A stretch of 64,000 nt of DNA from an uncultured bacterium (lineage in GTDB: Bacteria > Verrucomicrobiota > Lentisphaeria > Oligosphaerales > Oligosphaeraceae), in the NCBI GenBank assembly GCA_902776645.1, contig CACYQT010000010.1, forward strand, positions 1 through 64,000. Reading direction: 5' to 3'. Positions 32,945 to 45,012 of the stretch are shown here, piece by piece (position 1 is the stretch's first letter; each line of letters begins with the position of its first letter). The notes under the pieces are model-generated. The model was given only the letters and a program-made list of their open reading frames with translations, was not told the origin of the DNA and did no database searches. The translations under genes were made by a program, and so were the position numbers.

Positions 32945-33571
32945 ATGGACATCTTCACTCCCGGCGGTCCCCTGCTGATTTTCCTGGCGGCAATGTTCAC
33001 CAGCAACATCCTGCTGTCCAAATTCTTAGGCATGTGTTCCTTCATCGCGATCTCCCGCAACATGAAGACGGCGTTCGGCATGGGGGTGGCCGTCACCTTC
33101 GTGACGTTCTGCACGGCCATGCTCAACTACGCCGTATACAAAGGCTTTTTGGTGAAAGGCTCCAAGTTCTTCGGCGACGCGGACTTGACGCATCTGAACT
33201 TCCTGATCTTCATCCTCGTCATCGCGGGCTTCGTGCAGCTGCTGGAGATCATCATGGAACGCTTCACGCCGGCCCTCTACTTCAGCCTCGGCATCTTCCT
33301 GCCGCTGATCACCGTCAACTGCGCCATCCTCGGCGTCAGCCTTTTCATGATCGATCCGACGCTTAATTTCAATTTCGTCAAGACCAGCGTCTACGCGCTT
33401 GGCTCCGGCATGGGCTACTGCCTCGCCATCTGCCTGATGGCCGGCATCCGTAACAAACTGAAAGAAGCGGACATACCGGAACCGTTGCAGGGCCTCGGCT
33501 CGACGGTCATCGTCACAGGCCTGATGGCCTTGGCGTTCATGGGATTCACGGGAATGGTGGAGCTTGGCTGA
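32945..33571 (+). CDS. nqrE: Na+-translocating NADH:quinone reductase subunit E
   Basis: A 208-residue protein with six membrane helices, an integral subunit of the sodium pump. It matches NqrE closely: FLGMCSFIAISRNMKTAFG, PALYFSLGIFLPLITVNCA, SGMGYCLAI and ADIPEPLQGLGSTVIVTGL. The two membrane cysteines that bind the intramembrane iron in NqrD/NqrE are in place (C near residue 31 and C in ITVNCA). The RnfA paralogue is excluded mainly because NqrF follows. It is the first gene of a four-gene operon E-F-B-C. The 129-base gap upstream holds only a TATATT box (32862) and a loose TCAATCCCTT repeat. Confidence 0.9.
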   Translation: MDIFTPGGPLLIFLAAMFTSNILLSKFLGMCSFIAISRNMKTAFGMGVAVTFVTFCTAMLNYAVYKGFLVKGSKFFGDADLTHLNFLIFILVIAGFVQLLEIIMERFTPALYFSLGIFLPLITVNCAILGVSLFMIDPTLNFNFVKTSVYALGSGMGYCLAICLMAGIRNKLKEADIPEPLQGLGSTVIVTGLMALAFMGFTGMVELG

Positions 33572-33572
33572 T

Positions 33573-34664
33573 ATGATCTACTTGGAAGCAATCATCACGC
33601 TGTCGGCCATCGGCGTCGGCCTGACAATCCTCCTCATCATCGCCAACAAGCTGTTCGGAAACTACGGCACTTGTAAAGTAAAGGTAAACGACCGCGAGCC
33701 GTTCGAAGTGGAAGGCGGCGGCAAGTTGCTCGAAGCCCTCTACGACCATAACATCTTCATCCCGTCCGCGTGCGGCGGCCAGGGCTCCTGCGGCTTCTGC
33801 AAGACCTGCGTCATCAAAGGCGGCGGCCCGCTTCTCCCCACGGAGGAGCCATACCTTACGGAAGAGGAGCAGAAGAACGGAACGCGTCTCGCCTGCCAGG
33901 TGAAGATCCGCAACGACATCGAAATACAGGTCAAGCCCGAATATCTGAGCATCAGGCAGTTCAAGGCGACCGTCGGCCAATGCAAGATGATGACGACGGA
34001 CATCCGCGAAATCCATCTGAAGCTCGCCCCCGGCGAAAAGATCGAATTCCGCCCCGGCCAGTATGTGCAGGTCATGGTTCCCAACAAGAAGGAGACGGTC
34101 TTCCGCGCGTATTCCATCGCATCCGTCCCCGCCAACGACAACGAAGTGGAACTGCTGGTCCGCTTGATTCCCAACGGCCTCGGCTCCACCTACTTGCATA
34201 GCGTCAAGGAAGGCGACGAAGTCACCTTCACGGGCCCCTACGGAGATTTCGTTCTCGACGAATCGGCGGACAGCGAGCTCGTCTGCGTGGGCGGCGGCGT
34301 CGGCATGGCGCCGATGCGCTCCCTCCTGCGCCATGTGGCCGCCACGAACCCGCAGAAGCCCTGCTGGCTGTTCTTCGGCGCCCGCACGACGGATCAGCTG
34401 CTCTACGAAGCGGAATTCAAGGCGATGGCGGAGAAGCTCCCCAACATGAAAATCTGCTACGCCCTCTCCGAACCGGAGAAGTGCCCAGACTGGAAAGGCG
34501 CCACGGGATTCATCCACGAAAGCGTCGCCCGCGAACTGGCCGAAAACGCCTCGCCCAGCCGCCAAGCCTTCCTCTGCGGCCCGCCCAAGATGCTCGAAGC
34601 CGCCCGCAAGACATTGCAACAGAAAGGCTTCAAGAATGAAAACATCTTCGCCGACGAGTTCTAA
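33573..34664 (+). CDS. nqrF: Na+-translocating NADH:quinone reductase subunit F
   Basis: A 363-residue flavoprotein that takes electrons from NADH. One N-terminal membrane helix (1-25) is followed by a plant-type 2Fe-2S domain with cysteines C67, C73, C76 (in CGGQGSCGFC) and C108. The FAD domain carries the RAYSIAS motif and the NADH domain GGGVGMAP plus FLCGPPKML. Somewhat shorter than the usual 405-410 residues, mainly in the FAD domain. The ATG at 33573 has GGTGGAG 10 bases upstream; a TTG nine bases earlier is too close to it. The gene starts one base after the nqrE stop. Confidence 0.95.
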   Translation: MIYLEAIITLSAIGVGLTILLIIANKLFGNYGTCKVKVNDREPFEVEGGGKLLEALYDHNIFIPSACGGQGSCGFCKTCVIKGGGPLLPTEEPYLTEEEQKNGTRLACQVKIRNDIEIQVKPEYLSIRQFKATVGQCKMMTTDIREIHLKLAPGEKIEFRPGQYVQVMVPNKKETVFRAYSIASVPANDNEVELLVRLIPNGLGSTYLHSVKEGDEVTFTGPYGDFVLDESADSELVCVGGGVGMAPMRSLLRHVAATNPQKPCWLFFGARTTDQLLYEAEFKAMAEKLPNMKICYALSEPEKCPDWKGATGFIHESVARELAENASPSRQAFLCGPPKMLEAARKTLQQKGFKNENIFADEF

Positions 34665-34686: not shown

Positions 34687-35550
34687 ATGCATCAACTTCA
34701 ACTATTCATCGGTAATTGGCAATCGGATGAAAAAGCCGCCGCGCAGGCCCGTTATCTGACCGCCCTGCTGCTCTGCTCGCTGCTGCTGGTCGGCTTCAGC
34801 GCAGGCGTCTTCGGCTGGAAACCGCTCGTTCTCGCGCTCATCGCAGGCGTTGCGGGATCGGTCGTCGAATTCGCGTTCTCTGCCGTCCGCAAGAAGCCCG
34901 TGACGGGCGGCGCGTTCGTCTACGGCCTTGCGCTCTCGCTGCTTGTGCCGCCCACGATGCCGTGGTGGGTCATCCTGCTGGCCGCCATCGCGGGCACGGT
35001 CTTCGCGAAGGAAGTCTTCGGCGGCGCGAAAAACGCCATCTTCAATCCCGCGCTGATCGGCGCGGCCATGATCCTCTTCAGCTACCCCGCCACGACGGCC
35101 GGAGCCTCCATGGGCAATCTGAACGCCATCGAAGGCGGCGTCGCGTGGGAAAACGGCATCTGGCTGCTGCTCGGCTGCCTCGCCATCCAGATCCTCTCCA
35201 ATCCTTCCTCCCTCTTCATCTACCTGCCGTTGGCGCTGATGCCGTGGCTTCTCGCGACGTATGTGATTCCGGACCAGAAGCTTCCGCTTGAAGGCAACCT
35301 CCAGCTGATCTTCTCCGAAGACTGCTTCCTGCTGGCGGGAATCCTGCTGGCGGTCGATCCGGGCAACGCTCCGCGCCGCTGGCCGGGCAAGATCATCTAC
35401 GGTTTCATCGTCGGCACGCTGTCCATTCTCATGCGCTGCTTCGCCAAATATCCGTTCGCCATGGTTTTCGCAATACTCATCGCCGACTGCATCGCCCCCT
35501 CGCTGGACATGCTCTTCGCCCCCAAGGCGAAGGAGGAGGCCGCCAAATGA
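34687..35550 (+). CDS. nqrB: Na+-translocating NADH:quinone reductase subunit B (short form)
   Basis: A 287-residue membrane protein; typical NqrB has about 410. Conserved NqrB/RnfD segments are present: VTGGAFVYGLALSLLVPPTMP, GGAKNAIFNPALIGAAM, and VDPGNAPRRWPGKIIYGF before the last helices. The usual SGAT flavinylation motif Dxx(S/T)GA(T/S) appears only as a weak TTAGAS (about residues 138-143) with no Asp, so covalent FMN here is doubtful. The missing length is mostly at the N-terminus and in loops. It is in operon with nqrF (22-base gap) and overlaps nqrC by four bases. Confidence 0.85.
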   Translation: MHQLQLFIGNWQSDEKAAAQARYLTALLLCSLLLVGFSAGVFGWKPLVLALIAGVAGSVVEFAFSAVRKKPVTGGAFVYGLALSLLVPPTMPWWVILLAAIAGTVFAKEVFGGAKNAIFNPALIGAAMILFSYPATTAGASMGNLNAIEGGVAWENGIWLLLGCLAIQILSNPSSLFIYLPLALMPWLLATYVIPDQKLPLEGNLQLIFSEDCFLLAGILLAVDPGNAPRRWPGKIIYGFIVGTLSILMRCFAKYPFAMVFAILIADCIAPSLDMLFAPKAKEEAAK

Positions 35551-36773
35551 AAAACTCACCGATCTATTCCATTCTGTACGTTTTCGTCCTCTGCGCCATC
35601 GCGGCCACGCTGCTGACGTTCCCGCCGCTCATGTGGGAAGGCCGAATGGCGGCCAATGAGAAATTCAACCGCATCCGCGCCATCATGGACGCGTCCGGCC
35701 TGCTCGTCTCCGGCGAATCGCAGAAAGTCGTGACGGAGAAGTTCGGCAAGATGGTCACCGAGAAGAAGGTCGGCGATCTGGAGATGCTGGAGGCCCGAGA
35801 TGAAGCGGGCGAACTCGTCGCCATCCTGTTCGAAATCGAAGGCCACGGCCATGAAGGCCCCTTCAAAGGCATTCTCGCCGTCACGCCGGACAAGCAGCGC
35901 ATCAAGGCGTTGCGCGTCTATGACCATCAGGAGACGCCCGGCCTCGGCGGCATGATGTCCGATCCGAAATGGGCCAGCCAGTTCAACAACCTGCCGATGA
36001 TCGTGGACGGCCAGCCCGGAATCGTCATCGATTCGACCGTTGACGCGCCGAACGCCGTCGACGCCATCACGGGTGCTTCCACGACGACGCACTCCCTCGA
36101 ACAGGCCATCAACGCCCAGATCCACTCCCTGCTGGCAGGCGGTATCAAACTCGTCCCACTGGATCTCGGCCTCACGCCTGACGCCGTCACGCGCGCCACG
36201 CCCGGTTATCCGAAAGGCTTCAAGCCGCCGCCGAACTACCGCGAAATCGAAAAACGGCCTGACTTCATGGTGCCCGCCGATCTCGTCAATCTCGCCCTCA
36301 ACAAGCCTGTTACGTCCAATCTCGGCGATGAAGAGCCCATGCGCGGAACCGTCTCGCAAGTCACCGACGGCAACAAGAAGAGCAACGAAGAAGACTACGT
36401 CGAAATGTTCCCCGGCGAGCCGCAATGGGTGCAGATCGATCTCGGCGAAATTCATGAAATCTACTGCGTCGTCGTTTGGCATTACTACAAGAACGCCGTC
36501 GTCTATCGCGACGTCATCGTCCAGATCGCCGACGACGCGGAAATGAAGGAAAACTGCCGCACGATTTTCAACAACGACTACGACAACAGCGCAGGCCTCG
36601 GCGAAGGAAAGGATCCAACCTATCAGGCCGGCTGGTGGGGCGAACTGGTTGACGCCCAGAAGGCGGACGGACAGCATGAAGGCACCAAGGCCCGCTACGT
36701 CCGCGTCTACACGAACGGCGGTGAAGCCGAAGAAGACACGCGCTTCGTGGAAATCGCCGTCTACGGAAGATAA
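35547..36773 (+). CDS. nqrC: NqrC-like FMN subunit fused to a C-terminal discoidin (F5/8 type C)-like domain
   Basis: A 408-residue protein. Residues 1-28 are the membrane anchor and 30-200 the periplasmic FMN-binding domain of NqrC/RnfG. The ApbE flavinylation consensus Dxx(S/T)GA(T/S) is present as D172-AITGA-S178, with Ser as acceptor. HQETPGLGGMM (127-137) is a typical NqrC segment. After a Pro-rich linker, residues 247-408 look like a galactose-binding/discoidin jelly roll: LALNKPVTSN, VTDGNK, WVQIDLGEIHEIYCVVVWHYY, KARYVRVYTNG. Ordinary NqrC ends at about 260. The extra domain would sit on the outer face of the membrane. The gene overlaps nqrB (ATGA) and is followed by a strong terminator. 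Confidence 0.85.
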   Translation: MKNSPIYSILYVFVLCAIAATLLTFPPLMWEGRMAANEKFNRIRAIMDASGLLVSGESQKVVTEKFGKMVTEKKVGDLEMLEARDEAGELVAILFEIEGHGHEGPFKGILAVTPDKQRIKALRVYDHQETPGLGGMMSDPKWASQFNNLPMIVDGQPGIVIDSTVDAPNAVDAITGASTTTHSLEQAINAQIHSLLAGGIKLVPLDLGLTPDAVTRATPGYPKGFKPPPNYREIEKRPDFMVPADLVNLALNKPVTSNLGDEEPMRGTVSQVTDGNKKSNEEDYVEMFPGEPQWVQIDLGEIHEIYCVVVWHYYKNAVVYRDVIVQIADDAEMKENCRTIFNNDYDNSAGLGEGKDPTYQAGWWGELVDAQKADGQHEGTKARYVRVYTNGGEAEEDTRFVEIAVYGR

Positions 36774-36806: not shown

Positions 36807-36857
36807 AAGGGCTGTTGCAAGACCTTAAAAGGCAAGCAACAGCCCTTGTTTTTTTTG
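36807..36857 (+). terminator. rho-independent terminator of the nqr operon
   Basis: A perfect 12-bp stem, AAGGGCTGTTGC (36807-36818) with GCAACAGCCCTT (36836-36847), followed by a run of T (36849-36857). Confidence 0.9.
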
Positions 36858-37961: not shown

Positions 37962-39905
37962 ATGAAAGTATTGAACACGATTCTACTGGGGCTTGCGGCG
38001 ACGGTGGCGATTCCGTGCATGGGCGATGTGGCGGTGCCGCCGATTTTCGCGGACAACATGCTGCTGCAACGCGACCATGACGTTCCCATATACGGCACGG
38101 CGAGCCCGGGCGAACTTGTCACGGTGGAATTCGCCGGCCAGAAAATTGACGCGACGGCGGACGCCAATGGCGAGTGGACGGCGACGCTCAAGCCGATGAC
38201 CGCCTCCGCCGAGCCGCGAGAGATGGTCATCACCGGTCTGAACAAACTGGTATTGAAGAACATACTGGTCGGCGACGTCTGGCTGGCGTCCGGTCAGTCC
38301 AACATGGAACTGCGGCTTCCCGAAGCCGTGAACGCACGGGAGGAAATCGCCAAGGCGGATTATCCGACGATGCGCTTTTTCACCGTCGCGCACGCCCTGT
38401 CGTCGGTCCCGCAGACGGAAGGCGTCGGCCAATGGCTGCTCTGCACGCCGCACAACGCGCCGAAATTCTCGGCGGCGGCATATTTCTTCGCACGGGAGAT
38501 CATCGAACGCTACAAAGTACCGATCGCCATCATCAGCTGCGGCGTCGGTTCCGCAGGCTGCGAATGCTACGTTCCGGAAGAAGTCCTGCGGTCGGATCCG
38601 CGTTTGCCGCAGCCGCTGAAGGATTTGAAACCGGAGGAATTCACGGATTGGGCGACGTATGACAAAGTCCGCATGCAGGTCTATCACGACGGCATCTACA
38701 AAGATCCTGGCATCAAACCGGAATGCCTCGAATGGGCCAAACCAGACTATGACGATTCCGACTGGCCGTCCATGGCGGTCCCGTCGTCCATCAAGCAGAA
38801 AGGCGTGAACATCGACGGCTCCGTTTGGTTCCGCTCGACGGTCGAAGTTCCTGCGGATTGGGACTTTGCGCATCCGTCGATGCTGGCGTTGAGCTTCGTG
38901 CAGCACAACAGCGTCGCCTACGTCAACGGTATTGAAATCGGCCGCAAGCAGAACGACGGCCGCGAATGGGTTGGTCACAACTATCCGTTCTCCAGCAAGA
39001 TGCTGCATGCGGGAAAGAACACGATCGCCGTCCGCATCACAGTGGAGATCGGCCATGGCGGCTTCTATCCGCCCTACCCGCGGCCGCTGACGCTCCAGCA
39101 AGGCAATAAGAGCATACGGCTTGCGACATCATGGAAATACAAGGTTGAGGCAGGCCGCGAGCCCCAACAATTGTCCCGCAACCTGCCGAGCGGCTACCGC
39201 CTGCCGTTCGTGCTGTTCAACGCGATGGTCCATCCCTATGTGCGGACACCGATCAAAGGCTTCCTCTGGTATCAGGGCGAATCGAATTCGGGCAACGCGC
39301 CGCAGCATGACATCCTCTTCCCCGCGCTCATCACGTCGTGGCGGAAATACTGGAAGGACGATTCGCTGCCGTTCTATTTCGTGCAGCTGCCGAACTACAT
39401 GGCGCGCAGCAACGATCCGAACGTGGGCGGCGGCTGGGCGTTCTTCCGCGAATCGCAGGCGAAGGCGCTGTCGCTGCCGCATACGGGCATGGCGGTCACC
39501 ATCGACATCGGCGAAGAGGCGAACGTTCATCCGCACAACAAGCAGGACGTCGGCCGCCGTCTGGCCCGCTGGGCCGGCCATGACTGCTATGGCGACACAT
39601 CGTTGGAAGTCTGCGGGCCGCTCTTCAAATCCGCGACGGTTGAAGGCGACAAGATCCGCGTCAAATTCGATTATGTCTATGGCGGCCTGCAGTTCAAAGA
39701 CGGCAAGCAGGCAGGCTTCGCCATCGCGGGAGCGGATAAGAAGTTCGTGTGGTGCGATGCGTCGATCGACGGCGACAGCGTGGTCGTGTCATCGCCGCAA
39801 GTTCCTCAGCCGCAGTATGTCCGCTATGCGTGGGGGATGAATCCGCCTGTCAGTTTGGTCAATGCGGCGGGCCTGCCAGCCGCGCCGTTTAGAACGGACA
39901 AATAA
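37962..39905 (+). CDS. sialate O-acetylesterase family protein with inserted beta-galactosidase-like jelly roll
   Basis: A 647-residue secreted SGNH esterase with a signal peptide (about 1-21). The nucleophile S113 lies in LASGQSNMEL, block III is FLWYQGESNSGN, and the catalytic Asp-His is in ANVHPHNKQDVG. Between them (about 240-385) is a jelly-roll insertion like the sugar-binding domain of beta-galactosidases (VWFRSTVEVPADW, then FVQHNSVAYVNGIEIGR), the standard layout of long bacterial sialate esterases. It removes acetyl groups from sialic acids or plant polysaccharides. It is a single-gene unit with its own promoter. Confidence 0.93.
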   Translation: MKVLNTILLGLAATVAIPCMGDVAVPPIFADNMLLQRDHDVPIYGTASPGELVTVEFAGQKIDATADANGEWTATLKPMTASAEPREMVITGLNKLVLKNILVGDVWLASGQSNMELRLPEAVNAREEIAKADYPTMRFFTVAHALSSVPQTEGVGQWLLCTPHNAPKFSAAAYFFAREIIERYKVPIAIISCGVGSAGCECYVPEEVLRSDPRLPQPLKDLKPEEFTDWATYDKVRMQVYHDGIYKDPGIKPECLEWAKPDYDDSDWPSMAVPSSIKQKGVNIDGSVWFRSTVEVPADWDFAHPSMLALSFVQHNSVAYVNGIEIGRKQNDGREWVGHNYPFSSKMLHAGKNTIAVRITVEIGHGGFYPPYPRPLTLQQGNKSIRLATSWKYKVEAGREPQQLSRNLPSGYRLPFVLFNAMVHPYVRTPIKGFLWYQGESNSGNAPQHDILFPALITSWRKYWKDDSLPFYFVQLPNYMARSNDPNVGGGWAFFRESQAKALSLPHTGMAVTIDIGEEANVHPHNKQDVGRRLARWAGHDCYGDTSLEVCGPLFKSATVEGDKIRVKFDYVYGGLQFKDGKQAGFAIAGADKKFVWCDASIDGDSVVVSSPQVPQPQYVRYAWGMNPPVSLVNAAGLPAAPFRTDK

Positions 39906-39916
39906 CTCTTAAAAAA

Positions 39917-39962
39917 GCTTCTAGAACTTCTAGAAAATCTAGAGCTTCTAGAAAATCTAGAA
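39917..39962. repeat. CTAG-rich tandem repeat (CTTCTAGAA type)
   Basis: Five irregular CTAGA-containing units fill the gap between the esterase and the SDR gene. Confidence 0.6.
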
Positions 39963-39976
39963 AAAAAGGAATAATC

Positions 39977-40741
39977 ATGGGCTCATTAAAAGGCAAACGT
40001 GCATTGGTCACAGGCGGCGGACAAGGCCTCGGCGAGGCGATCACCCGCGAACTGATCCGTCAGGGCTGTGACGTCGCGATCCACTATTTCACCAGCAAAG
40101 ACGGCGCGGAAGCGCTCGTCAAAGAAGCCCAGGCGGCCGGCCAACGGGCCGCCGCCTTCCAGGCCGATCTCACGAAAGAAGACGACGCCGTCAAGATGGT
40201 CCATGACGCCGCCGCGTTTCTCGGCGGCCTGGACGTGCTCATCAACAATACGGGCGATCTCGTCAAACGCGTCTGGCTGCAGGACATCACCAGCGAATTT
40301 TGGGACAAAGTCATGTCCGTCAACCTGAAAAGCATGATGATCGTCACGCGGATGGCCGTCCCGTATCTTGCGAAAAACACAGGTGGAAGTAGCATCGTCA
40401 ATCTCGCGTCGCTGGCTGGCCGCAAAGGCGGCCACGCGGGATCGTTGGTGTATGGCACGAGCAAAGGCGCCGTCATCACATGGACGCGCGCCCTTTCCGG
40501 CGAACTCGCCGACCGCAAGATCCGCGTCAACTGCGTCGCGCCAGGCCTGATGCTCGGCACGCGTTTCCACAACACCCACACGACGGCGGAATCCGCCGCC
40601 CTCACCGTCTCGCAGATTCCGCTTGGCCGCGCGGGCAATGCCGAAGACGTCGCCCGCCCTGTCGCGTTTCTCGCCTCCGAATACGACGGCTTCATCACGG
40701 GAGCCACGCTGGACATCAACGGCGGCGTGTATTGCGCATAA
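39977..40741 (+). CDS. short-chain dehydrogenase/reductase (FabG-like SDR)
   Basis: A 254-residue classical SDR. The Rossmann motif is TGGGQGLG (about 13-20), the NNTG variant of NNAG follows in VLINNTGDLVKR, the catalytic Ser lies in NLASLAGRKG, and the YxxxK is YGTSKGA. The C-terminal INGGVY closes the fold. It reduces or oxidises a sugar, polyol or acyl intermediate with NAD(P)H. The FabG label reflects general similarity; there are no fatty-acid genes nearby and carbohydrate enzymes surround it. It has a clear AAAGGA site. Confidence 0.9.
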   Translation: MGSLKGKRALVTGGGQGLGEAITRELIRQGCDVAIHYFTSKDGAEALVKEAQAAGQRAAAFQADLTKEDDAVKMVHDAAAFLGGLDVLINNTGDLVKRVWLQDITSEFWDKVMSVNLKSMMIVTRMAVPYLAKNTGGSSIVNLASLAGRKGGHAGSLVYGTSKGAVITWTRALSGELADRKIRVNCVAPGLMLGTRFHNTHTTAESAALTVSQIPLGRAGNAEDVARPVAFLASEYDGFITGATLDINGGVYCA

Positions 40742-40900
40742 GAGCTAAAAGCTTAAAGCTTAAAGCTTAAAGCAAATACTGTAGGCTTCTAGTTTTCTAG
40801 GCTTCTAGCATTCTAGGCTTCTAGGCTTCTAGCCTCCTAGCCTCCTAGCCTTCTAGACTCCTAGCCTTCTAGCCTCCTAGCCTTCTAGCCTCCTATCATT
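40742..40900. repeat. compound tandem repeat: TTAAAGC units then 8-bp CTAG units
   Basis: Three to four TTAAAGC units (40748-40773) precede about fourteen 8-bp units of the form YTCYTAGS (40782-40896). The array ends 18 bases upstream of the GH13 start. Each unit contains CTAG, a tetramer many bacteria avoid. Confidence 0.75.
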
Positions 40901-40914
40901 CTGGATTCATCACC

Positions 40915-43900
40915 ATGCACAAAGCCATTCTCGCCATTCTGTTGCCGCTGTTTGCCGTTGCGCAAGCCCTTCCATTGCAAAAGACGGATGATGCTATCAT
41001 TTTCGGCGACAAAGACTTGCAAGTCGCCTTTTCGCCGCAGGACGGATCCATCCGGAAACTGGAACACAACGGCATCATGGTCGCCGTCGCGCAGCCCAAC
41101 GCCCTGTGGATGAACATCAAAGGAGAAGACGGCGCATGGTTGCCGGAAGATTCTCCATGGAAGTTGCAGGACGCCGTCCAGACGGCGGACGACACGTTGC
41201 GGCTGGATGTCGTGAACGGCAATTGGTCCGTCCATGTCTTCACGCAGCTTTTTCCGGAAAAAGGACAGCTAAGACGTTGGTTTGAAATCGCCTGGACAGG
41301 CGACAAGCCGTCGAAAATTCGCCATTTCCAGCAGCGGTGGTTCCGCATTCCCATGGCCGTAGGCATGTTCTACGAACTGCCAGCCAATCGCACAACGCGC
41401 GAAAGAATCGGATACGACGATCTGAAAGACCATGCCGTCCATCGTGCGGGAAAAGGCTCGCGGGCCTGTATTTTCCAACTGGCCGCCAAACGTTCGTTCC
41501 TCTTCCTAACCAACGAATTGGCAACAGGCTTTGACAACACGAACACGACGCTTGAAAACCGTGACGAGGCCGTTGACGCCTCTCTCTTCGCGGACATCCA
41601 AGGCCATACGCAACCGAATGTCTACCAGACACTTGGCGAATATTGGCTCTGGTTGCAGGACAACGACGCGGAGACCGCCTTGACGCGTATCCACGAATGG
41701 CATCACGACCGCGGCCTCGTCCCGCCGGCGGACCGTCCGGACTGGGTTCGCCGCGCCACGCTATACTCCTTCCATCCGAAAGGCTCCATCGGCAGCCTAT
41801 GGTCCGATTGGGGCGGCTTCGAACCGAGCATCAAGCAGTTGGATCGTATCGCCGAACTCGGCTGCAATGCCATCTGGCTGTTGCCATTGGAAGATCTAAG
41901 CCCCTACTGGCCACGGGATTACTATAAATTCCAAGACGGCCTCGGCACACCTGAACAATACAAACAGCTTGTCGATCGCGCACACGAACTCGGCATGCAT
42001 GTCTGGCAGGACATCGTCCCGCACGGCGGCTCCAACACCTACCAGCGGGCCAAAGATCATCCGGAATGGCTTGTCCAGCAGGAAGATGGCTCCACGCTCA
42101 ATTATTGGTGCTTCGATTTCAACTGGCCAAGCTGGATCGACTACATGAAAGACGTCGCGCGGCACTACGTCAAGACCTACGGCATCGACGGCTACCGCAT
42201 CGATGCCTGTGGCGGCAGCAAGATTCCGAACTGGAATCCCGATATCCCCTATTCCCGTGCCAGCCAGTCGCTTACACCAGGAGGCATTAATATGCAAAAG
42301 GCCATTCGAGACGGCTCGCGCGAATTCAATCCTGCCGCCGCGACGCTCGCCGAAACAGGCGCCAACGTCTTCGGCGCCATCAGCGACTGCCTCTATGATT
42401 TCACGTTCTGCTACGACATGATGCAGGGCCTTCGCAAACGCGATCCGCAAACGTTCGTAAAGGACCTGCGCCGCTGGCTCCACGAACAGCAATGCACGGA
42501 TCTGCCCGGCCAGATCCGTCTCCGCCACATTGAAAGCCATGATTCCCTCCGCGCGGAATACTGGTATGACCGCGGCATGCGCCGCGCCATGGCCATATCC
42601 GCCTGGATACCAGGCATTCCTATGGTCTATCAGGACATGGAGGATGGTCACGGCTACTCTATCCGCCAAATCCTGAAAATCCGCAACTCGCTCGTCGAAA
42701 TGGGCGACGGCGACGCGGATTATCTTTCTGTGAGTGCTCCCGGTGACATATTTGCTGTTTTACGCACCGCCAACCAGACAGATAATCCGCCTGCTCAATA
42801 CGCATGGGATAAAGGTGCGGGGCCGCGTGCATCCATCGCCGTCGTCGGCCTTTCACCCTATTACACTGGCATCGACGGCGCCATCAGCATTCCTCTTTCC
42901 AAACTTCCCGAACCGTTCCGCAAGACAACGCAAGTCTTTGATATCCTTAATGGAATAACTGTCAAAGCCGTCACAAAAGGGACCTATTTATGTCTTCCTG
43001 TCCCGGAATCCGGCATGGCCGTCTATCGTTTCGGCATGGCCGTCTATCGTTTCGGCGGATTGCCCGAGAAACTGACGCCTGTCCCGAAATCATTTATCGA
43101 ATTCCATGGGACTCAGCAACTTGCATTCAAAGCATTCGCCATTGGAGACAATGGTGAACGCACGCCACTGCCGGATTTCACGCAATTTGATTCCCGTACG
43201 ACAAATATTGGGAAAGGATTGCTTCTGCGTTTAGATATTCCAGAAGGGACACCATGCGATTGGGCTGCTTCCGCCGCCAACGGCGTCTGGTTCGACCGCT
43301 TCCGCACACGCCATCCAAATTGCAATGGCGTCGTCCGCAACATCTATTACATGGCGCAGGGCGGCAACGTCCTTTGGAATTCGCTTTTCTGGCCGTTCGG
43401 ACTCTCTCCGCACGATGCCAATATCACATTCGCCACGCAAGACGGCTCCGTCTCCCTTCTCTTCAATCCGCAGGCCCTTCCCGCCGCTGTTTTCATTTTG
43501 GATCGTGTTGGAGACGAACACGTTCCACATGTCTTCATCGCGGAAATGCTGGATGCCGTGCCTGAATTCGGCGCCTGTCCGTTTACGTTTGAATTGAAAT
43601 CATCTTCCTTCAGCCACAAAGCGCAACTTGACAAGTCATTGAAATCCATGCCCGGGCAATATATCTACACGGCAGGATTGAATCGATTCCGTATTGGTCG
43701 CAATGGCAACCTTCTCGAATGGAGAACAGTCAAAGGGCGCTGGAGTGAAACGATAACATATAATCTCATCTCGGAGACAAGCCTCTATACGGACGCAGGC
43801 TTTGGCGAAGACCGTCTCCGCTATTCCGCCAATGACGCCGCCGAGCCGTTCTCCCGCATCACACGTATGGAAGACGGCACCATCCGCCTGCAATTCCTCG

Positions 43901-45012
43901 GCACAATGCGTGGTTTCAACCGTTTTGAAACCATGGGTTCGCCTATCGACTATTATACAGAATACCGAATGAACAATACAGATTCCATTGGCTTCGTCTG
44001 CGGCATCCGCAACCGCCAGCCTGCCGCAGGGAATCGCAGCTTCACCGCCTGGATGGCGACAACCGCCTTCCAAGATCCATACACCGCCACGATGTCCGAC
44101 GACAACGGAATCCTTCAGAAAGGAACGTCGGACAAACAACGCTCCATGCAGACGAAAGGGAAATACAACCCATTTGACATCAAGGAAATACGCTTTGAGG
44201 GAAACAATCGGGTTGGCATGCCTCATATCAGTTGGGGAAAACCGATTAATGTCAACGAACAGTATAAATGCTATTTCCGTCTGCGGGACATCAAATGGCA
44301 GTCCCCCATGCAGCCCGCCAATGTCTTCCTGCACAACAAGAATTTCTTCATCGCCTGGCATGACGGTCCGCCGCCGGAAAATGACGCATACGGCCAATGG
44401 CGTTTTTTCTCCACCTGCCTCACGACACATGAAAACGGCGGCCCCTCCCCTGAAATTCCGTCGTTCGCCAAACAGACTCCCTCCAAACGGTCTTTGCTCA
44501 ATGATCTTGATTTTGAGGAATATGCGCAAAAACAATGGTTTAGAGACATGGTTCAGTTTTTCCCCCCGAACGCCGGATGGAACATCCCGAAAGGCGCGGC
44601 ATTGGATACCACGACCTTCCACAGCGGCAAAACCGCCCTGCGCATCGAAGGTTTCGACGGCGAATACCGCCTCGTCCGGCAGAACATCCCATTGGCGTTG
44701 CTATCGGTCGGTTCGAAATGGAAGCTTTCCTGCTGGGTGAAATCGGACAACATCCAGCCGGGCACGATCGGCTGGATGAACGGCACGCTCCGTTTGGAGC
44801 TTTTCAGAGAAGGAAAGCCTGTCGAATATCGGTCGCTTGCCTTCCCGCGGGAAGCGTTTGACTGGAAGCAATTCTCCGTTGAACTGACAGTTCCCGAAGG
44901 ACTTATGAATATTTCCATTGCCGCTGGTCTCAACGGCAATCGCGGCAAAATATGGCTTGACGACTTCTCTCTCGAACGGATAGACACCCCAAACAACAAC
45001 AAGGAGAAATGA
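40915..45012 (+). CDS. giant secreted GH13 alpha-amylase-family protein
   Basis: A 1365-residue protein with a signal peptide (1-19). Residues 20-270 form an N-terminal beta-rich domain. The GH13 barrel covers about 280-640: region I is WQDIVPHGG (364-372, Pro-His replacing the usual Asn-His), region II GYRIDACGG with nucleophile D430, region III TLAETG with acid/base E480, and region IV HIESHDS with D543. The second half (about 700-1365) has no domain I recognise until a C-terminal carbohydrate-binding-like sandwich (about 1190-1350, SGKTALRIEGFDGEYR). It probably cleaves or transfers alpha-glucans or a related polymer. A 21-bp exact duplication encodes GMAVYRF twice (43012-43053). Confidence 0.8.
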   Translation: MHKAILAILLPLFAVAQALPLQKTDDAIIFGDKDLQVAFSPQDGSIRKLEHNGIMVAVAQPNALWMNIKGEDGAWLPEDSPWKLQDAVQTADDTLRLDVVNGNWSVHVFTQLFPEKGQLRRWFEIAWTGDKPSKIRHFQQRWFRIPMAVGMFYELPANRTTRERIGYDDLKDHAVHRAGKGSRACIFQLAAKRSFLFLTNELATGFDNTNTTLENRDEAVDASLFADIQGHTQPNVYQTLGEYWLWLQDNDAETALTRIHEWHHDRGLVPPADRPDWVRRATLYSFHPKGSIGSLWSDWGGFEPSIKQLDRIAELGCNAIWLLPLEDLSPYWPRDYYKFQDGLGTPEQYKQLVDRAHELGMHVWQDIVPHGGSNTYQRAKDHPEWLVQQEDGSTLNYWCFDFNWPSWIDYMKDVARHYVKTYGIDGYRIDACGGSKIPNWNPDIPYSRASQSLTPGGINMQKAIRDGSREFNPAAATLAETGANVFGAISDCLYDFTFCYDMMQGLRKRDPQTFVKDLRRWLHEQQCTDLPGQIRLRHIESHDSLRAEYWYDRGMRRAMAISAWIPGIPMVYQDMEDGHGYSIRQILKIRNSLVEMGDGDADYLSVSAPGDIFAVLRTANQTDNPPAQYAWDKGAGPRASIAVVGLSPYYTGIDGAISIPLSKLPEPFRKTTQVFDILNGITVKAVTKGTYLCLPVPESGMAVYRFGMAVYRFGGLPEKLTPVPKSFIEFHGTQQLAFKAFAIGDNGERTPLPDFTQFDSRTTNIGKGLLLRLDIPEGTPCDWAASAANGVWFDRFRTRHPNCNGVVRNIYYMAQGGNVLWNSLFWPFGLSPHDANITFATQDGSVSLLFNPQALPAAVFILDRVGDEHVPHVFIAEMLDAVPEFGACPFTFELKSSSFSHKAQLDKSLKSMPGQYIYTAGLNRFRIGRNGNLLEWRTVKGRWSETITYNLISETSLYTDAGFGEDRLRYSANDAAEPFSRITRMEDGTIRLQFLGTMRGFNRFETMGSPIDYYTEYRMNNTDSIGFVCGIRNRQPAAGNRSFTAWMATTAFQDPYTATMSDDNGILQKGTSDKQRSMQTKGKYNPFDIKEIRFEGNNRVGMPHISWGKPINVNEQYKCYFRLRDIKWQSPMQPANVFLHNKNFFIAWHDGPPPENDAYGQWRFFSTCLTTHENGGPSPEIPSFAKQTPSKRSLLNDLDFEEYAQKQWFRDMVQFFPPNAGWNIPKGAALDTTTFHSGKTALRIEGFDGEYRLVRQNIPLALLSVGSKWKLSCWVKSDNIQPGTIGWMNGTLRLELFREGKPVEYRSLAFPREAFDWKQFSVELTVPEGLMNISIAAGLNGNRGKIWLDDFSLERIDTPNNNKEK
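43012..43053 (+). repeat. exact 21-bp tandem duplication inside the GH13 gene
   Basis: Two identical copies of GGCATGGCCGTCTATCGTTT plus C, in frame, give GMAVYRFGMAVYRF. It lies where the GH13 C-terminal domain would end, so it may be tolerated. Confidence 0.95.

Follow-up and report, generated by a model that had tools for sequence, protein, structure and literature searches.

Why the FMN subunit of a sodium pump should carry a discoidin-like domain, and what kind of complex it would serve, is the question raised by one gene of the window (the whole 64,000-nucleotide stretch of Lentisphaeria DNA that was analysed). A first-pass annotation had read this gene as NqrC of the sodium pump, continued by an F5/8 type C carbohydrate-binding module. 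The encoded protein is laid out, from N- to C-terminus, as a transmembrane helix, an FMN-binding domain, a linker and a discoidin/CBM32 fold (DISC domain):

35547-36773, + strand: nqrC-discoidin fusion gene, 408 amino acids, a single open frame without stop or frameshift
35547-36140, + strand: membrane-spanning helix (about residues 5-50) followed by the FMN-binding domain, from Pfam, PDB relatives and a structure model
36069-36080, + strand: flavinylation motif T-G-A-S (residues 175-178) with Ser178 as acceptor, read in the sequence
36141-36278, + strand: linker LDLGLTPDAVTRATPGYPKGFKPPP...RPDFMVP; stand-alone DISC proteins have its homologue in their N-terminal part
36279-36770, + strand: discoidin/CBM32-fold (DISC) domain, residues 245-408, from Pfam, structure, Foldseek and conservation

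Pfam domains and predicted fold agree on the proposed fusion of an NqrC-type FMN domain to a discoidin-like jelly roll, and the three motifs named for the latter, LALNKPV (249-255), WVQIDLG (294-300) and YVRVY (384-388), are all found in frame. The first half contains Pfam FMN_bind at residues 101-190 (E = 2.4e-11, above the curated cut-off); its nearest solved structures are NqrC (PDB code 4xhf) and RnfG (8rb9), and helix 5-50 and the FMN domain were modelled with pLDDT values of 70-96. The flavinylation motif is intact, with Ser as acceptor as the annotation had stated: its context reads D172-A-I-T-G-A-S178, with Ser178 at the place where Thr is usual, and [S/T]GA[S/T] is retained in every fused NqrC aligned. 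The complex thus has the motif-bearing FMN subunit of Na+-NQR type, and TGAS at 175-178, together with one ApbE in the genome (G000:C19), is what is expected of an ApbE substrate. Placement of the discoidin part outside the membrane is likewise supported.

A first AlphaFold run with the whole protein and 8 homologues returned a good FMN domain and a discoidin part of low confidence. With a 79-sequence alignment, residues 199-408 were predicted with a mean pLDDT of 93.5 and a pTM of 0.91, as an eight-stranded jelly roll of the galactose-binding superfamily. CBM32/F5-8C domains headed the Foldseek search against the PDB, among them the chitosan-binding module 4zxe (E = 5e-8, TM = 0.79 by target length), and Pfam F5_F8_type_C_2 (NedA-like) matched at 272-344 (E = 1.9e-7, above the curated cut-off). 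Sequence profiles tie the domain only weakly to solved structures (E = 0.03); in combination with the good predicted fold this indicates that the discoidin call is correct as a fold and that the domain, as modelled, is a divergent subfamily. Invariant in it are W311-H312, D322, N342-N343-D344-x-D346, G352-x-G354, R386 and E402. What stands of the carbohydrate-binding module is therefore the fold; the generic module does not, as the domain belongs to a secreted-protein family that is conserved and occurs in a genomic setting of its own, and carbohydrate binding is putative, the support reaching as far as the fold. Heme binding by DISC was ruled out, as CxxCH is missing, and a role as a new ApbE substrate was dropped, as DISC proteins lack [S/T]GA[S/T].

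That an assembly error, a frameshift or the chance joining of two genes produced the fusion is practically out of the question: the frame is intact, and the same architecture recurs, at 50-93% identity, in 16 of the 198 genomes of class Lentisphaeria, in 9 genera. Four congeners share it at 74-93% identity, and it is present in the single-contig genome of the isolate Oligosphaera ethanolica DSM 24202 and in about a dozen more; a scan of genome contigs returned full-length fusions from Victivallales, O. ethanolica DSM 24202 and other Lentisphaeria MAGs. Whole operons read nqrD-E-F-B-C.disc (L043, L051, L052, L070, L072, L074). That the fusion is largely confined to Lentisphaeria is supported; it is, however, not strictly absent elsewhere, since two Planctomycetota MAGs carry it (L070, Phycisphaerae; L077, Planctomycetes, cut at the contig end). 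In a gene tree of the discoidin domain 16 of the 17 fused copies group, and a well-supported branch separates nearly all stand-alone copies, a topology in keeping with one main old fusion; splits of the fusion are possible at L078 and L079, and the long branch of L077 is perhaps a second origin. The stand-alone DISC proteins of these two loci (L078:143-1921, L079:6823-8612) are of the 'fused' type, with the linker DAVTRATPG, and each is adjoined by a Tat-secreted aldo/keto-reductase-like protein (GKIGDLEIGRMILGGN), a kind of protein also seen in the DISC cluster L133 (L133:13640-14695). One NqrC of 701 residues (L071:7986-10091, G010:C81) carries discoidin domains in tandem, two in number, of which the second has diverged strongly.

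The identity of the complex depends on the remaining subunits. The operon of the window runs in the order nqrE (32945), nqrF (33564), short nqrB (34687) and nqrC-discoidin (35547), the start ATG of the last overlapping the stop of nqrB (ATGA; translational overlap):

32945-33571, + strand: nqrE-like gene, 208 amino acids, Pfam Rnf-Nqr (2.6e-52)
33564-34664, + strand: nqrF-like gene for the NADH-side subunit, 366 amino acids, Pfam Fer2, FAD_binding_6 and NAD_binding_1
34687-35550, + strand: short nqrB/rnfD-like gene, 287 amino acids, Pfam NQR2_RnfD_RnfE (2e-38)
36807-36857, + strand: 12-bp perfect inverted repeat AAGGGCTGTTGC / GCAACAGCCCTT, then a T run, read from the sequence

The inverted repeat is the likely transcription end of the operon; its 17-nt loop is beyond the range of the hairpin scan, which gave no call for it. 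The promoter scan returned nothing above chance, no phage match was found, and no further protein conserved in the nqr operon was seen. On the 3' side, positions 37962-45012 encode a 647-aa sialate-acetylesterase-like protein, a short-chain dehydrogenase and a 1365-aa secreted protein whose first half is glycosidase-like, with no sign that these genes belong to the operon. The nqrD of this genome stands alone on another contig (L035:6645-7286, G000:C42), where it adjoins an AsmA-like gene; in G005, G019, G026 and others, nqrD heads the operon.

The cofactor-binding residues of the arm leading from NADH to FMN are conserved. Cys 31 and 126 of the membrane subunit NqrE (LGMCSF, TVNCAI), the pair that binds the intramembrane 2Fe-2S cluster in NQR, align with those of RnfA and canonical NqrE, and alignments also show Cys 70, 76, 79 and 111 of NqrF and the Cys of NqrD to be retained. 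The genome thus encodes an NqrF with 2Fe-2S, FAD and NADH domains and an NqrD/NqrE pair with iron-sulfur Cys ligands (NqrE in the window, NqrD on G000:C42), as in Na+-NQR. The NCBIfam scores are slightly below the cut-off for nqrE (226.7 bits; cut-off 247.6) and nqrF (287 bits; cut-off 295), and far below the equivalog cut-offs for NqrC and NqrB.

NqrA and the NqrB flavinylation motif, on the other hand, are both missing. A PF05896 search found no NqrA in the genome of the window or in 30 relatives, including the one-contig genome G011; a match in the former is the RnfC of its rnf operon, and most of the relatives gave no match. The short NqrB aligns solely to residues 137-224 and 339-400 of solved NqrB, the middle being absent, and in 8 of 8 aligned NqrB of this type the periplasmic loop with the flavinylated Thr is missing, and with it [S/T]GA[S/T]. 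At that loop TGAT is kept in RnfD of the same genome's RNF and in one of the two canonical NqrB aligned from the class, the other (G073) having TTAT. The nqr operons contain no rnfB or rnfC homologue, and at another locus the genome carries a canonical rnfA-B-C-D-G-E with an unfused RnfG of 208 aa. Without NqrA and the FMN loop of NqrB, the return half is lost, and what is retained is the half that leads from NADH to the periplasm. The complex is therefore not an ordinary NQR: the sodium pump as known does not describe it, and a simple NQR with a carbohydrate-binding module was discarded as a full description.

Relatives of the DISC domain are encoded at 361 loci, in Planctomycetota, Verrucomicrobiota, Kiritimatiellota, Acidobacteriota, KSB1, Calditrichota and other phyla. 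Among the 80 loci kept, the non-fused proteins are almost all secreted, with a signal peptide and about 220-280 residues, and the same discoidin domain is preceded by a linker, LPKPxFxGTPKxIKTPNLE...RPxxMVP, that proved homologous to that of the fusion when 17 fused and 80 stand-alone domains were compared column by column. Within the fetched flanks of the 64 loci with stand-alone DISC only, where contig ends make all counts lower bounds, the neighbours are an Agl23/TIGR03663-like membrane protein (at least 40 loci), ApbE (at least 37), Gfo/Idh/MocA (at least 33), a 7-heme cytochrome (at least 23) and a cytochrome b of formate-dehydrogenase-gamma type (at least 13). The Gfo/Idh/MocA proteins show distant similarity to the glycoside 3-dehydrogenase BT_2158, and genes for PF06439 3-keto-disaccharide hydrolases lie within or close to DISC clusters. 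In eight clusters of about 7-11 kb (L086, L087, L091, L113, L119, L133, L140, L142) ApbE is an 'orphan' without a recognised substrate nearby: none of its neighbours there has an FMN-binding domain, and [S/T]GA[S/T] is absent from the neighbours of DISC-cluster ApbE with the sole exception of the 7-heme protein of L139. In two Hydrogenedentota proteins (L095:5279-6892, 537 aa; L103:6951-9203, 750 aa) an N-terminus resembling a sigma factor precedes one DISC domain or two.

Stand-alone DISC occurs in 22 of the 198 genomes of the class, all 16 fusion genomes among them. The Agl23-like protein (E < 1e-15) is found in 21 of the 198, all within these 22, and in 15 of the 16 with the fusion; the association of Agl23 with DISC has a Fisher p of 2e-27 by genome and 1e-15 by genus, uncorrected for kinship. 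The 7-heme gene is present in G027, G044 and G036 and in none of the 16 fusion genomes. Loci L070 and L072-L074 read nqrD-E-F-B-C.DISC, DISC, Agl23, with one transporter gene between in L070, so that the nqr block occupies the place before DISC and Agl23 held elsewhere by cytochromes. Loci of family f9 differ by exactly this block, ABC-TPR-DISC-Agl23 in G044 and ABC-TPR-[nqrDEFB-C.DISC]-DISC-Agl23 in its relatives, the flanking proteins being 50-78% identical; G044 carries 7-heme and ApbE genes on another contig. In the genus to which the window belongs, DISC, Agl23 and nqr lie apart from one another. The idea of an exchange rests on few cases, since the 7-heme gene occurs in only two of the six DISC genomes of the class without the fusion (G027, G044); of the remaining four, one is incomplete and three come from a family in which a DUF6797/cytochrome c protein adjoins Agl23. 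The DUF6797 protein is seen at L199:1-4314 (G038), where a large protein of 1438 aa encoded after Agl23 combines a malectin and a DUF6797 domain with cytochrome c domains (4 CxxCH); the start of a related gene is found at the same place in G042. Lack of quinone as the reason for the NQR form was set aside: MqnA/D is absent from 15 of the 16 fusion genomes and MenD reached the cut-off in none of them, but the 7-heme DISC genomes G027 and G044 are also without these menaquinone markers, so that the argument fails to separate the groups.

In NQR, electrons pass from NADH to FAD and the 2Fe-2S cluster (NqrF), the iron-sulfur centre (NqrD/E), FMN (NqrC), FMN and riboflavin (both NqrB) and quinone (NqrA/B); in NQR and RNF alike they travel from the cytosol to a periplasmic flavin and back again. 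From gene content and residues we consider it somewhat probable that the present complex is an NQR-derived 'half-circuit' that delivers electrons outward, docks through its discoidin domain on DISC/Agl23 and is the counterpart of the 7-heme/cytochrome b form. NqrF would take electrons from NADH in the cytosol and relay them through its 2Fe-2S cluster, and the intramembrane cluster of NqrD/E would pass them on to NqrC and its covalent FMN on the outer side of the membrane, where they would most likely remain, as NqrA is gone and the FMN site of NqrB is lost. The discoidin domain on NqrC would dock the complex on, or present it to, the DISC/Agl23 envelope system, the alternative genomic form of which appears to use a 7-heme cytochrome c and cytochrome b; an exporter driven by NADH would then replace a quinol-linked cytochrome module. 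We infer the direction from NADH to the periplasm, the docking, the equivalence of the two modules and a glycan or glycan-linked target. Export is favoured over import because NADH and quinol can both donate electrons and NAD+ is a much poorer acceptor than quinone. NqrB is kept despite the loss of its FMN, so it may retain some function of the second arm, and the canonical RNF in the same genome was counted against the half-circuit. More tentatively, DISC, the Agl23-like protein and ApbE could constitute an undescribed extracytosolic redox system of many phyla, fed by interchangeable transmembrane modules, either the quinone-linked 7-heme cytochrome/cytochrome b or the NqrA-less NQR half-circuit with its DISC-fused FMN subunit.

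The same complex might work in reverse, with electrons from a periplasmic oxidation passing through DISC, NqrC-FMN, NqrD/E and NqrF to cytosolic NADH, perhaps driven by sodium influx. Secreted Gfo/Idh/MocA proteins would, for example, oxidise glycosides and 3-keto-disaccharide hydrolases cut the products, while in respiring organisms the 7-heme/cytochrome b module would pass the electrons to quinone. Complexes of NQR/RNF type are reversible, and the Gfo/Idh/MocA genes, distantly similar to BT_2158, at 33 or more of the 64 loci and the PF06439 genes would find a role here. We nevertheless regard reverse flow as unlikely: reduction of NAD+ by sugar oxidation is uphill compared with that of quinone, which would make the modules thermodynamically unlike, whereas NADH and quinol can both serve as reductants, and no gene for a Gfo/Idh/MocA-type dehydrogenase adjoins the nqr block in the window.

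Little credence, in our view, can be given to the discoidin domain as a passive carbohydrate-binding anchor that holds an ordinary Na+-NQR near peptidoglycan or the outer envelope. The CBM32-like fold returned by Foldseek suits such a role, and many F5/8C domains serve as adhesion modules; but with NqrA and the flavinylation site of NqrB both missing there is no ordinary NQR to be anchored, a generic anchor would not be expected to co-occur specifically with stand-alone DISC and Agl23, and the linker, besides the domain, derives from DISC. Were the complex complete, reducing quinone or linked to ferredoxin, with an unrecognised protein or RnfC/RnfB of the rnf operon in the part of NqrA, this would suit the retention of a NqrB homologue and the presence of the canonical rnfA-B-C-D-G-E. 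Such a reading is very improbable, given that RNF already has its own full set of subunits, that every NqrB of this type checked lacks the FMN loop and that no other operon protein is conserved.

The half-circuit reading would give a gut-type Lentisphaeria bacterium a pump relative without the quinone-side half. With the outward arm kept and the return arm dropped, it would isolate what the outward step alone does (sodium pumping, electron acceptor). A gene cluster of DISC, Agl23-like protein, ApbE, 7-heme cytochrome and cytochrome b that is widespread and apparently unstudied also comes into view, and two unrelated modules for electron delivery would be seen to replace each other in nature. 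As Oligosphaera ethanolica is a cultured isolate, the system is testable. A literature search, with subscription journals mostly outside its reach, returned no paper that joins NqrC or ApbE with discoidin and no NQR naturally without NqrA. The complex belongs to the NQR/RNF family, possibly with an undescribed envelope redox system behind it.

With Na+-NQR it shares homologues of NqrB, C, D, E and F and the conserved residues from NADH to the FMN of NqrC; it differs in the missing NqrA, the short NqrB without flavinylation loop, the discoidin domain on NqrC and the gene order, D-E-F-B-C instead of A-B-C-D-E-F. Operons of canonical order with unfused NqrC of 203-206 aa occur in other families of the class (L186:1080-5396, G073; L187:1939-6221, G075); that of L186 is complete to nqrE at the contig end and includes a 454-aa gene with NQRA domains and 4Fe-4S motifs that looks intermediate between NqrA and RnfC. 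RNF (RnfABCDGE), present in normal form in the same genome, has a homologous membrane core, whereas the complex described here has an NqrF-type NADH subunit, no RnfB or RnfC, and an RnfD-like subunit without FMN site. Also close are the Nqr/Rnf-like two-subunit complexes, mainly of Actinobacteria and CPR, in which an NqrC-like protein and an NqrB fused to a NAD domain are proposed to carry electrons in one direction, with NAD(P)H as the source and an extracytosolic FMN domain as the destination (Meheust et al. 2021, PMC8238504; Huang et al. 2024, PMC10979944). The division of NQR into an arm up to the FMN of NqrC and one after it follows the terms used by Meheust et al. (PMC8238504), and partial NQR/RNF-like systems of other make-up are reported there and in PMC10979944; neither paper mentions discoidin or Lentisphaerae. 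The two-subunit complexes are likewise partial NQRs with an NqrB-type subunit lacking the flavinylation site, but here the NqrF-D-E arm is kept, NqrB is short and encoded separately from NqrF rather than fused to a NAD-binding domain, NqrE and NqrD are present, and NqrC is fused to discoidin. DISC resembles CBM32/F5-8C domains in predicted fold, Pfam family (F5_F8_type_C_2) and Foldseek match (TM = 0.79 to 4zxe), and is set apart by its motif set WH[YF][YH]...YxDVxVQ...NNDxDNSxGxGxG, its N-terminal GTP/ATPG linker and a context of electron transfer rather than of a glycosidase. Multiheme cytochrome c with cytochrome b of formate-dehydrogenase-gamma type, finally, holds the same place beside DISC, Agl23 and ApbE in other phyla; its protein families are unrelated to nqr, and it is a presumed analogue by context.
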